DNA of 64,000 nt. Origin: Ureibacillus acetophenoni (GTDB lineage Bacteria; Bacillota; Bacilli; Bacillales_A; Planococcaceae). Shown one piece after another: positions 11,590 to 39,206 of this stretch (its first letter is position 1; each line of letters starts with the position of its first letter). Position numbers and translations under genes: made by a program. Location of the stretch: NCBI RefSeq assembly GCF_900220965.1, contig NZ_OBQC01000014.1, positions 1-64,000 on the forward strand. The letters are read 5' to 3'. The notes under the pieces were generated by a model, which was given only the letters and a program-made list of their open reading frames with translations, searched no databases and had not been told where the DNA came from.

Positions 11590-11625
11590 TTTCTTCATAA
11601 ATTCTGCACATTTATTATTTATACT
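11590..11625 (+). promoter_or_regulatory. Phased 11-mer promoter box G (ccdA operon)
   Basis: TTTCTTCATAA (11590-11600) and ATTCTGCACAT (11601-11611), then eight bases, then TATACT (11620-11625). Geometry is the same as in boxes A, B, C, F and J. It precedes the operon that encodes the sensor kinase and response regulator, so autoregulation is likely. Confidence 0.6.
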
Positions 11626-11688
11626 CTTAATGAGTTGTTTACTAATAATCGATTTCATTAAATCGGAAGAAAGGTTTGTGAAAATTTC

Positions 11689-12399
11689 TTGGCTGAACAG
11701 TTAACTATCTTTCTTGCTTTCGGAGCGGGACTTTTATCATTTATTTCACCATGTTCTTTGCCTCTATATCCTGCATTTCTTTCATATGTTACTGGAATGT
11801 CCTTTAATGAATTGAAAGAAGACAAAGGAATATTTCAAAAAAAAGCACTAATCCATACAATATTATTTTTAATTGGATTTTCAATTATCTTTTTGGCTTT
11901 AGGACTTTCAACTTCAATTATTGGAAAAATATTTATACAGTATCAAGAATTACTTAGACAAATTGGTGCACTATTTATGGTTATCTTTGGATTAGTAATT
12001 CTAGGTTTTTTCAAATTTGATTTTTTAAGTTCGGAGAAAAGAATCCAGTTTAAGAAAAGACCTAAAGGATATATTGGTTCCGTTTTGATTGGAATAGGTT
12101 TTGCAGCTGGTTGGACACCCTGTACGGGTCCTATTCTTGCAGGTGTTATTGCGTTAGGAATATCAAATCCAAACCAAGGGATTATTTATATGCTGTTTTA
12201 TGTACTTGGTTTTGCAGTTCCATTCCTAGTCATGTCACTATTTATTGGGAGAATGAAATTTCTTCAGAAAAGAAGCGACCTGTTTATGAAAATAGGTGGG
12301 ATCTTAATGATCCTAATGGGTATTCTATTATACTTTGATCTGATGACAATGATTATTGCATTTTTAACACCATACTTCGGAGGGTTTACGGGATTTTAA
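11689..12399 (+). CDS. CcdA-family thiol-disulfide membrane transporter
   Basis: A 236-residue membrane protein with about six helices. It carries the two conserved cysteines that pass electrons across the membrane: FISPCSLPLYPAF near residue 22 and GWTPCTGP near residue 144. CcdA passes reducing power from cytoplasmic thioredoxin to extracytoplasmic partners such as ResA/TlpA proteins, and a TlpA gene follows at 12442. The TTG start at 11689 is uncertain because the nearest Shine-Dalgarno (AGAAAGG) is about 14 bases away. First gene of an operon running to 16806. Confidence 0.85.
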   Translation: MAEQLTIFLAFGAGLLSFISPCSLPLYPAFLSYVTGMSFNELKEDKGIFQKKALIHTILFLIGFSIIFLALGLSTSIIGKIFIQYQELLRQIGALFMVIFGLVILGFFKFDFLSSEKRIQFKKRPKGYIGSVLIGIGFAAGWTPCTGPILAGVIALGISNPNQGIIYMLFYVLGFAVPFLVMSLFIGRMKFLQKRSDLFMKIGGILMILMGILLYFDLMTMIIAFLTPYFGGFTGF

Positions 12400-12441
12400 T
12401 GACTTACATGACGGGTATATAAGGGAGGATAATATATAATT

Positions 12442-12975
12442 ATGGATAAAAAAAAGAGACGAAAAGTAGTAAGATTTATAATTCTACTGTTATTATTCTC
12501 AGCAATAGTTTTTACGATATATACAAGCTTAACGAAAGAAAAAGCTGCAGTTTTACAAATTGGCGATTTAGCACCGGATTTTGTACTCTTAGATATGAAT
12601 GGAGAAGAACATAAGTTATCTGATTATAGGGGGCAAGGTGTCTTTTTAAACTTTTGGGGTACTTGGTGCGAACCGTGTGAAAGAGAGTTCCCAATAATCA
12701 ATCGTTATTACCACGAATATAAAACACAAGGACTTCAGGTTTTAGCAGTGAATATCGCGGAATCGGATTTTGTAGTTCAAAACTACATTGACCGTAAAAA
12801 ACTGACATTCCCGGTTTTAATTGATAAACGTAAGGACGTAATGGGTTCATATAACGTAAGGCCTTTACCAACGACAGTGCTTATAAATCCAGAAGGAAAA
12901 ATAGAGAAAATTATTACTGGTGAAATGAGTGATACGGCTATACGCAATTATATGGAACAGATATTGCCGAAATAG
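12442..12975 (+). CDS. TlpA/ResA-like membrane-anchored thioredoxin
   Basis: A 177-residue protein with an N-terminal membrane anchor (residues about 11-30) and a thioredoxin domain facing outside. The active site is WCEPC (C76, C79), and the cis-Pro segment is RPLPTTVLINPEG. It should reduce disulfides in apocytochromes or copper-site proteins using electrons from the CcdA encoded just upstream. A second TlpA-like gene lies at 34059, and the 3' end of a third (resA) at 43152. Confidence 0.85.
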   Translation: MDKKKRRKVVRFIILLLLFSAIVFTIYTSLTKEKAAVLQIGDLAPDFVLLDMNGEEHKLSDYRGQGVFLNFWGTWCEPCEREFPIINRYYHEYKTQGLQVLAVNIAESDFVVQNYIDRKKLTFPVLIDKRKDVMGSYNVRPLPTTVLINPEGKIEKIITGEMSDTAIRNYMEQILPK

Positions 12976-13043
12976 CAGATTAAATTAATCTTTTAAATCC
13001 TCAAGAATAAGGTTATCTTTGAGGATGGAGGAATCAAATAATT

Positions 13044-14405
13044 ATGAACAAGATTTCTATAAAACTAGCTACTTGTTTTTTTATAGTAGTGCTTATGATG
13101 GAATACTTTTTAATGGTCTATCTTCATCGAAGTATTGTTCATACTAGAGTTGAAGAAGAATTTTCCCTTTTATTATCAAATGGAGCAAACCATAGAGATG
13201 TATTAGTTGAGTATTACTCTGAAACTACAATAAAACATATTGTACTAATGGAAATGAATGAGGAAAGGGAAGTTGTTATTACTGATAATTGGGGGAATAT
13301 CGTAGGAGATTCTGGGATAAATAGCAACTTATTAGAAGAATATCTCCCACTAATAAAAGGTACAGTAGGAAGTAAAGATGAGATAATAATCTCCAATTGG
13401 GAAAGCTCTCCTTACATTGTGAGTAAACACCCATACAAAATTAGTGACATTGAATCTGGTAATGTCGTAATGTTCCAAAGTACAAACTCTCTTAATCGAA
13501 TGGTTAGCTACTTGAGCATTCACTTCGTAATAACGGGGATAATGAGCTTTTTAATACTTCTACTTTTATACGCTTTTTTATCAAAAGTGATTACTAGACC
13601 ATTAATCCGGATGAAAGAAGCTACTGAAAAATTAAGTAAAGGCGAGTTTAATGTTAGTCTGCCTAAATTAGGAAAAGACGAACTTGGAGAATTGTCTTTT
13701 TCTATTCAAAAATTAGCCAATGATTTGGAAAGACTAAAAAAAGATCGAAATGAGTTTCTAGCCTCTGTTTCACACGAATTAAGTACACCTTTAACTTATC
13801 TAATTGGATATTCAAATGTTGCAATGAGAGATGGTTTGAATGACGAGGAAAGAAAGCAATATCTTGAAATTATTGGAGAAGAGTCAAATAGGATGAAGGA
13901 TCTCGTCAAGAACTTGTTAGATCTTGCGAGAATGGATGAAAACTCTTTTACGGTAACAAAAACCTATTTTTATTCACAACCATTCCTGGAAGACATTTGT
14001 AAACTAGTTGCCCCATCCTTTGAATTGAAAAATATCAAATTAAACTTAAATAGTAACGAAAACTTTACAATATATGCTGACTCTATTCGATTAGGGCAAA
14101 TAATTGTAAATTTATTAGATAATGCTTTGAAATATTCAAAAGAAAATACGGAAGTTATTTTGGAAGCATATAAGAAAAAGGATAAAACGGTAGTTAAAGT
14201 CATTGATTCTGGAATTGGTATTCCGTCAGAGGAATTAGATTTTATTTTCGAGAAATTATACCGTGTTGAAAAATCTCGTTCGAGAGAATATGGTGGTTCA
14301 GGAATTGGATTAGCAGTTGTAAAAGAGTTAATTGAAGCACATGGTGGCACTATTAGTGTGGACAGTAAATTAGGGATAGGAAGTACATTTACCATTACTA
14401 TCTAA
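13044..14405 (+). CDS. Sensor histidine kinase (HAMP, HisKA, HATPase)
   Basis: A 453-residue kinase. It has two membrane helices (about 7-28 and 165-190) enclosing an extracytoplasmic sensor domain of about 135 residues. A HAMP linker follows, then the H-box SVSHELSTPLTYLIGYS with phospho-acceptor near H243, the N-box NLLDNALKYS, and G-boxes DSGIGIP and GGSGIGLAV. The stop is 16 bases before the response regulator, so they form a pair. The stimulus is unknown; the operon content (CcdA, TlpA) and the surrounding copper genes suggest copper or extracytoplasmic redox stress. A relic of another kinase C-terminus is at 39003-39161. Confidence 0.9.
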   Translation: MNKISIKLATCFFIVVLMMEYFLMVYLHRSIVHTRVEEEFSLLLSNGANHRDVLVEYYSETTIKHIVLMEMNEEREVVITDNWGNIVGDSGINSNLLEEYLPLIKGTVGSKDEIIISNWESSPYIVSKHPYKISDIESGNVVMFQSTNSLNRMVSYLSIHFVITGIMSFLILLLLYAFLSKVITRPLIRMKEATEKLSKGEFNVSLPKLGKDELGELSFSIQKLANDLERLKKDRNEFLASVSHELSTPLTYLIGYSNVAMRDGLNDEERKQYLEIIGEESNRMKDLVKNLLDLARMDENSFTVTKTYFYSQPFLEDICKLVAPSFELKNIKLNLNSNENFTIYADSIRLGQIIVNLLDNALKYSKENTEVILEAYKKKDKTVVKVIDSGIGIPSEELDFIFEKLYRVEKSRSREYGGSGIGLAVVKELIEAHGGTISVDSKLGIGSTFTITI

Positions 14406-38814: not shown

Positions 38815-38919
38815 ACTAATAGTATTCGGATTTTCGTGTTAAAAGCAAGCTAACTGATTGGTGTTCATCAATTATAAGTTAGACAAACTGTGCAAGAAAC
38901 CCAATGCAGAGATTTAAAA

Positions 38920-38953
38920 GCTCCTACTTTATGGTAGGAGCATTTTAAATTTT
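38920..38953 (+). terminator. Terminator after the DUF1541 gene
   Basis: GCTCCTAC (38920-38927) pairs with GTAGGAGC (38934-38941), followed by ATTTTAAATTTTT. Confidence 0.75.
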
Positions 38954-39002
38954 TTGTTTGATTATTATGTTAAAGCTAGTGAGAATTCTTAAATTAATAA
39001 CA

Positions 39003-39161
39003 TTATTTATAAGTTATAAATGTGGAACCTCTCCCTAATTCACTTTCCACTTGAATATCGGTTTGATGAAGATCTAAAATGTGCTTGACAATAGACAGGC
39101 CGATTCCTGTATCTGTTTTAGTGGACCTTGTTCAATCCGCTTTATAAAATCGTTCCCACAT
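39003..39161 (-). pseudogene. Relic of a histidine kinase C-terminus
   Basis: On the minus strand the frame reads MWERFYKAD, a TGA (39132-39134), TRSTKTDTGIGLSIVKHILD, then LHQTDIQVESELGRGSTF and a stop. This is the ATP-binding G2-box end of a sensor kinase. It is unlike the intact kinase at 13044 in detail. The rest is missing. Confidence 0.75.
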
Positions 39162-39170
39162 AGTATATTT

Positions 39171-39206
39171 TATATCCATAAATTATCCATATTTGTTTGT
39201 TAAATT
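39171..39206 (+). promoter_or_regulatory. Phased 11-mer promoter box F (C39 lipoprotein)
   Basis: TATATCCATAA (39171-39181) and ATTATCCATAT (39182-39192), then eight bases, then TAAATT (39201-39206), 34 bases before the start codon. The repeated unit ATCCATA is the clearest direct repeat of all boxes. Confidence 0.6.

Follow-up and report, generated by a model that had tools for sequence, protein, structure and literature searches.

A 22-bp tandem-repeat box as the candidate operator of a probably copper-triggered, LcoRS-like regulon on a Ureibacillus acetophenoni island

The stretch of DNA analysed in this work (the window) comprises 64,000 nucleotides of Ureibacillus acetophenoni (contig NZ_OBQC01000014.1, positions 1 to 64,000) and carries an island of copper-related genes with a sensor histidine kinase and a response regulator. 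Seven sites in the window share a 22-bp box that consists of two contiguous 11-mers, and the box is followed by a spacer of eight bases and a -10 hexamer. We propose that the kinase/response regulator pair encoded on the island uses this box as its operator. The pair is a Bacillales relative of the lactococcal pair LcoRS, which would be triggered by copper and would activate the units behind the boxes (Table 1). The probability of this reading is estimated at roughly 77%. The initial annotation of the window had read the boxes as a regulon in which the regulator runs its own operon together with wall, thiol, and lipoprotein genes. That reading is largely right and partly supported: the box tracks the regulator and precedes its operon, but a multicopper oxidase gene had been missed among the targets. 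A copper-triggered regulon run by the island's own pair is probably what the sequences record.

The six sites named in the initial annotation (G, A, B, C, J, and F) all exhibit the sequence and the spacing given there. The profile of 36 columns that was built from these six sites returned the same six sites and one new place at 41462 (site K) as its top seven places in the window. The new place scored 29.6, the next-best place scored 16.8, and the best score among 300 column-permuted profiles was 25.7. When each site was left out in turn, the omitted site ranked 5th to 9th among about 128,000 positions, and site J was the weakest (rank 9 with 36 columns, rank 15 with the 22 box columns only). 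All six sites are real, but site K and a weak, tentative eighth site at 27991 had been overlooked. Sites similar to the eighth are found ahead of the chemoreceptor gene in the family genomes G131, G160, and G114, and also in G173, where the chemoreceptor gene lies beyond the end of the stretch. The eighth site is overlapped in the window by ordinary promoter-like matches from a generic promoter scan, which gave no excess over shuffles (69 vs 86.7 and 81 vs 77.8).

Two further profiles were used. M1 was built from the seven window sites only, and M2 was built from 97 unique sites (80 regulator loci, six plasmid stretches, and the window), so that M2 was trained on loci that it scans. M2 repeats itself at 11 bp with a column correlation of 0.83, compared with at most 0.25 at 8-10, 12, and 13 bp; the tandem-repeat scan of the window returned nothing at the boxes. 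The best -10 lies at exactly the stated spacing for 112 of the 154 sites that were picked by the box columns of M2, a count that is partly circular because the training sites of M2 already carried a -10. A common -35 is lacking: at 16-18 bp, agreement with TTGACA is about 1.5 of six bases on average. This agrees with the earlier statement that a normal -35 is lacking, but a simple consensus scan calls a promoter across site B (TTAAAA, 17 bp, TATTAT; 9/12 matches), and the statement is therefore weakest at site B. Terminator-like stems are found close upstream of sites G, J, and F, in keeping with separate transcription units.

The relatives of the regulator were examined as the best 80 of at least 80 named loci, which are 76 to 48% identical and total 1.53 Mb. 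The initial annotation had suggested that a motif be built and scanned through relatives. In such a scan, M1 at 15 bits or more gave 122 matches, whereas 50 permuted profiles averaged 2.9, and at least one match was found in 63 of the 80 loci. M2 at 13 bits or more gave 174 matches in 73 of these loci, the same that trained it. A kinase that resembles the window's was recognised in 69 loci. In 41 of these, a box ends no more than 120 bp upstream of the kinase gene, and a control stretch inside that gene has it in 0/69. Downstream frames were picked mechanically as the longest that start within about 400 bp, across the 80 loci, the six plasmid stretches, and the window. For 162 of the 199 boxes, the window's seven included, the first frame resembles an island protein: kinase (50), YdhK (34), multicopper oxidase (14), F510 protein (14), CopB-like ATPase (9), and others. 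The frames beyond these 162 include MreB, AsnB, Mur ligase, and CueP. The boxes before MreB, AsnB, and Mur ligase genes lie in L117 (14252-15396), L122 (20735-22737), and L096 (16015-17559), and envelope genes recur behind the box in this way.

The regulator of the window consists of a receiver and a winged-helix Trans_reg_C domain, which place it in the OmpR/PhoB subfamily, and by geometry the predicted operator fits the tandem direct repeats next to a -10 that this type uses. By sequence, the regulator is homologous to LcoR, which regulates copper genes in lactococci: tblastn in plasmids gave 48.7% identity, and LcoR is nearer than the paralogues in the own genome (at most 42% over full length, 44% in the receiver only). 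According to one report, lcoRS regulate lcoABC and the plasmid is associated with copper resistance (PMC5152845). The 17-kb plasmid stretch of L. cremoris SK11 has one strong box, which scores 23.9 with M1 (next 10.4), a profile that holds no lactococcal site, and 28.3 with M2 (next 2.7). This box lies 117 bp ahead of an annotated lgt gene that is followed by DUF2933, and pNZ712 has the same site; the predicted operators are at 14082 in L118 and 10082 in L123. Judging from gene order, the lgt gene behind the box would be lcoA. The system of the window and LcoRS-lcoABC (L. lactis plasmids pND306 and pNZ712) share the regulator (49%) with the same recognition-helix core, the His/His/Met set of the kinase, and the predicted box before lgt and DUF2933. 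The two differ in order, which is lcoR-lcoS-lcoA-lcoB-lcoC in lactococci, whereas the kinase precedes the regulator in the window. In addition, the window operon has thiol-redox genes, its lgt is in a separate unit, and it has at least seven box sites.

The pho box of Escherichia coli sits in place of the -35. Both the pho box and the window box exhibit two contiguous 11-nt direct repeats, which PhoB binds in tandem, and the window core is CTGCATA-like, but the window targets are not phosphate genes. A PhoB orthologue was considered and rejected (NCBIfam PhoB score of 208.3 bits, cut-off of 296.2). The PhoB repeats and their core, CTGTCAT, are given in PMC4415409. The pair of the window also resembles CusRS/CopRS of Gram-negative bacteria as a copper-linked OmpR-type pair; models of the heavy-metal subfamily match it below their cut-offs, so that by those cut-offs the window pair falls outside. 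The target set of CusRS/CopRS differs from that of the window. PMC8275575 describes a copper-induced lgt2/lit2 operon on mobile elements of Listeria and Enterococcus; as proposed for the window, a mobile element there carries a second lgt under copper control. The literature search, which took in passages of PMC5152845, PMC7961091, PMC8275575, PMC1526738, PMC3348028, and PMC4415409, found no description of the box; the original LcoRS papers may describe a repeat at that promoter.

The 80 loci and seven plasmid stretches yielded 76 kinases. The alignment combines the window's kinase with those among them that had a suitable length and has 75 rows, among which the two lactococcal copies are alike. 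Four metal-type residues of the outer domain are conserved: His50 (75 rows), His65 (74), Met69 (75), and Met143 (73). Some non-metal residues, such as Gly139 and Thr62, are kept equally well. In the predicted structure (pTM 0.44), a long helix carries His50 close to its end, the short helix that follows carries His65 and Met69, and a strand carries Met143. The fold search with this model matched kinase cores only and returned nothing on the sensor domain.

The recognition-helix core RT(I/V)DSH(I/V) is found in 80/80 regulator loci and in LcoR. The regulators that adjoin CTACATAA boxes carry RVVDQH, RIVDQH, or RVIDQH instead. At positions 6 and 17 of the box, an A occurs in 0-1% of LcoR-type loci and is standard in the CTACATAA class. 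With few examples at hand, box and recognition helix read as having changed as a pair between the classes. The loci L265, L266, L267, and L272 exhibit a different regulator-kinase pair with a CTACATAA-type box ahead of the same oxidase gene.

The conservation of single targets was followed in 200 family genomes, of which 126 have a regulator match at 1e-58, 80 an oxidase match, and 158 YdhK. The calls of regulator absence rest on 14 scored candidates per genome, and nine genomes were repeated with all candidates. These genomes overlap in part with the named regulator loci, and the two sets are not independent. All of the best 30 oxidase loci that were fetched, the window included, have the box before the gene (M1 of at least 18.3), and all 30 genomes carry the regulator. 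The box ends 31-47 bp before the match in 29 of them and 101 bp before it in one. For YdhK, 30 loci were fetched out of the 158 positive genomes, and a site of at least 14 bits with M2 precedes the gene in 14 of the 19 genomes that have the regulator and in 2 of the 11 that lack it (p = 0.007). These last two are G137 and G123, and the regulator of G123 (47%) is just past the cut-off.

The three closest islands are those of G131, G160, and G099, with regulators of 93, 92, and 90%. All three have boxes ahead of ccdA and of the D,D-carboxypeptidase gene, and two of the three (G131 and G160) also ahead of DUF2933-lgt and the rhodanese gene. Site A also has a counterpart in G173, and site B in the lgt/DUF2933 locus of L. 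cremoris SK11. The oxidase box is present in G131 and G099, and in G160 on another contig. Site G is the putative promoter of the ccdA-tlpA-kinase-regulator operon. The rhodanese gene (site C) and the tlpA-like gene (site J) had been counted as targets, but a decayed remnant comes first behind each box, and the present targets of these two sites are therefore less certain than the others. Behind site C, a remnant related to nitrite/sulfite reductases (NIR_SIR, 26782-27012) lies before the rhodanese gene; it is 47% identical over 79 aa to a relative with an open frame at 10628-11266. Behind site J lies a decayed ydhK (DUF1541) remnant (33894-34034), and an open-frame ydhK is found elsewhere at 38197; the counterpart of site J has an intact ydhK behind the box in G131 and G099.

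Under the proposed mechanism, the kinase would sense extracytoplasmic copper, probably through His50, His65, and Met69 and possibly with the help of Met143, and the regulator would become phosphorylated. Like PhoB on the pho box, a head-to-tail dimer of the regulator would then occupy the two 11-bp repeats where a -35 would otherwise lie, and would recruit RNA polymerase at the -10. The units activated would be its own operon with the thiol-redox genes, the multicopper oxidase, DUF2933-lgt, the D,D-carboxypeptidase, and the C39 lipoprotein, and perhaps also the rhodanese, TlpA, and chemoreceptor units. Copper is the suggested signal because of the LcoRS homology and the target genes. The csoR-copZ-copA genes are presumably left to CsoR and controlled separately; no box was found before them in the profile scan of the window or the pattern search of the genome. 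A crude CsoR-type motif (GGGTA/TACCC) that was scanned around the sites occurs near site J only.

Several findings weigh against this reading. No match was found in 17 of the 80 regulator loci with M1 (at least 15 bits) and in 7 with M2 (at least 13 bits). The box is absent just upstream of the kinase gene in 28 of the 69 loci; among these, four (regulators of 70-71%) have it further upstream, as in the window, and L073 has it 228 bp upstream. The Lentilactobacillus plasmid L120, whose regulator (49%) has an LcoR-type helix, exhibits no convincing box in 25 kb (M1 12.2). The plasmid L122 has a second pair (regulator 45%) with its own weak box (15.7), so that cross-talk is possible. In G137 (L268), strong boxes stand ahead of ydhK and a CcdA/TauE gene, although the closest regulators of this genome reach an identity of 35-42% only. 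Beyond the best 30 loci, 20 of 35 further regulator-positive oxidase genomes were examined, and M2 reaches 15 bits in 16 of them and M1 in only 9. In 14 of the 15 oxidase genomes without a regulator match (G152 was dropped for a broken gene), a box-like site is found in 8 by M1 and likewise in 8 by M2. The oxidase box is not a clean marker of the regulator there, because the M1 count of 9/20 with it compares with 8/14 without it. In some relatives similar boxes stand beside another kinase pair, and G137 has them without a close regulator.

Some of these findings bear on the possibility that several OmpR-type island copper regulators share a near-common box and that more than one pair reads the regulon in some hosts. 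Of the eight box-like sites in regulator-negative oxidase genomes, seven carry CTACATAA-type repeats. Among genomes without the regulator, eight stretches were inspected, including six oxidase loci. In G035, G133, G170, and G009, which have CTACATAA boxes, the oxidase is immediately preceded by another regulator-kinase pair (regulator 31-33%), and no pair was found alongside the oxidase in G028 and G070. Second pairs also occur in G099, L117, L120, and L122; in G099 the nearby box follows the kinase gene of this pair, and in L122 a weak box precedes the pair. The boxes of G137 would fit a shared box as well. The island of the window has one intact pair only, however, and the differences in box positions 6 and 17 and in the recognition helix (RT(I/V)DSH vs R(V/I)(V/I)DQH) point, from few examples, to separate specificities. 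We consider a shared box unlikely.

The wall enzymes among the targets, and the AsnB, MreB, and Mur ligase genes behind boxes in relatives, could also suggest that the island exploits the boxes of a housekeeping envelope regulator (WalR) or a PhoP-type regulator. The initial annotation had named WalR as an example of another regulator, and the result spoke against it: neither TGTWAH-N5-TGTWAH nor TT(A/T)ACA repeats were found around the eight sites. Motifs of WalR, PhoP, and CssR were all sought around the sites, and the three regulators were rejected because none was found. The pattern derived from the seven sites, which matches these by design, has a single additional exact match in the 3.98-Mb genome, and it lies outside the island. 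With at most one mismatch it has 28 matches vs 14 for a reversed control, and these looser matches are largely noise because the control already gives 14. The box also precedes the operon of the island's own pair and tracks that pair, which leaves a housekeeping regulator very improbable. A last possibility, in which no regulator is involved and the repeats are mere relics or AT-rich parts of promoters, deserves next to no weight: decayed genes now face sites C and J and a plain promoter match overlaps site B, but the geometry is fixed, the box is conserved before the oxidase, and the excess over permuted profiles is large. An operator of the island's own LcoRS-like pair is the reading that we prefer.

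The box sites and the principal island genes are listed in Table 1.

Table 1. Box sites and island genes in the window. Site coordinates cover 36 columns (22-bp box, 8 bp, and -10 hexamer).
Feature	Position	Strand	Remarks
Site G	11590..11625	+	Box + 8 bp + -10; 63 bp before ccdA-like 11689
CcdA/DsbD-type membrane protein	11689..12399	+	Pfam DsbD_TM; first gene of regulator operon
ResA/TlpA-type thiol-disulfide oxidoreductase	12442..12975	+	
Sensor histidine kinase, LcoS-like	13044..14405	+	Outer-domain His50, His65, Met69, Met143 conserved
OmpR/PhoB-type response regulator, LcoR-like	14422..15108	+	
F510_1955-family protein, regulator operon	15122..16045	+	NF045728 257 bits, cut-off 175
Second DsbD-type membrane protein	16060..16806	+	Counterpart in plasmid L117 annotated TauE/SafE
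Site A	18793..18828	+	Box + -10; 25 bp before D,D-carboxypeptidase 18854
S11 D,D-carboxypeptidase	18854..20077	+	
Membrane protein with cupredoxin domain	20304..21218	+	No own box found by window profile scan
DUF326 protein	21342..21692	+	
Site B	21867..21902	+	Box + -10; 44 bp before DUF2933 gene 21947, then lgt 22199
DUF2933 small protein	21947..22159	+	
Lgt, prolipoprotein diacylglyceryl transferase	22199..23014	+	By sequence; 61% to annotated lgt of plasmid L117
Site C	26688..26723	+	Box + -10; first NIR_SIR-like remnant, then rhodanese 27133, 409 bp on
Rhodanese, membrane-anchored	27133..27549	+	Anchor read from sequence
Weak eighth site (tentative)	27991..28026	+	34 bp before chemoreceptor 28061; M2 15.5, M1 7.0
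Site J	33855..33890	+	Box + -10; first decayed ydhK remnant, then tlpA-like 34059, 168 bp on
TlpA/ResA-type protein	34059..34688	+	
csoR-copZ-copA block	35002..38068	+	csoR by Pfam; copZ and copA by match to annotated L117 genes
Site F	39171..39206	+	Box + -10; 33 bp before C39-peptidase lipoprotein 39240
C39-like peptidase lipoprotein	39240..40205	+	
Site K (new, seventh)	41462..41497	+	Box + -10; 31 bp before multicopper oxidase 41529
Multicopper oxidase, lipoprotein-like start	41529..43052	+	

The start of the F510_1955-family gene was chosen by us, and the listed frame opens at 15062. The DUF326 protein is one that we take to be of the four-helix copper-storage type. Further envelope enzymes of the island are encoded on the minus strand, namely a SpoIIP-family protein (40416-41279) and an NlpC/P60 + SLH protein (25543-26463), and the profile scan of the window found no box of their own. 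A short histidine kinase remnant (39018-39161, minus strand) lies just ahead of site F. A transposase pair (4440-6040) and a serine recombinase (49204-50931), both read from sequence, flank the copper island and suggest its mobility. At gathering score, Rfam yields a single match in the window, to a cobalamin riboswitch (53895-54084), and a known RNA element at the box sites was rejected on this account; the riboswitch appears to precede a binding-protein/ABC-transporter operon.

The box is a candidate operator of a copper sensor of the LcoRS type, and the literature search found this family in print only for lactococcal plasmids. On plasmids and islands of Bacilli, the operator links copper genes with genes for the cell wall, lipoproteins, and thiol chemistry, and target genes can be predicted by searching sequences for the box. 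Both the His/His/Met residues and the joint change in box and helix lend themselves to direct tests. More tentatively, and as a picture that we would not yet favour, the system may be a mobile and self-contained copper regulon of Bacilli. At rising copper levels, its single operator would add or replace envelope enzymes (Lgt and D,D-carboxypeptidase, and in relatives AsnB, MreB, and Mur ligase) since those of the host would be copper targets. A new His-His-Met site would let its kinase detect the metal, and box and helix would have been re-tuned together in sister islands.

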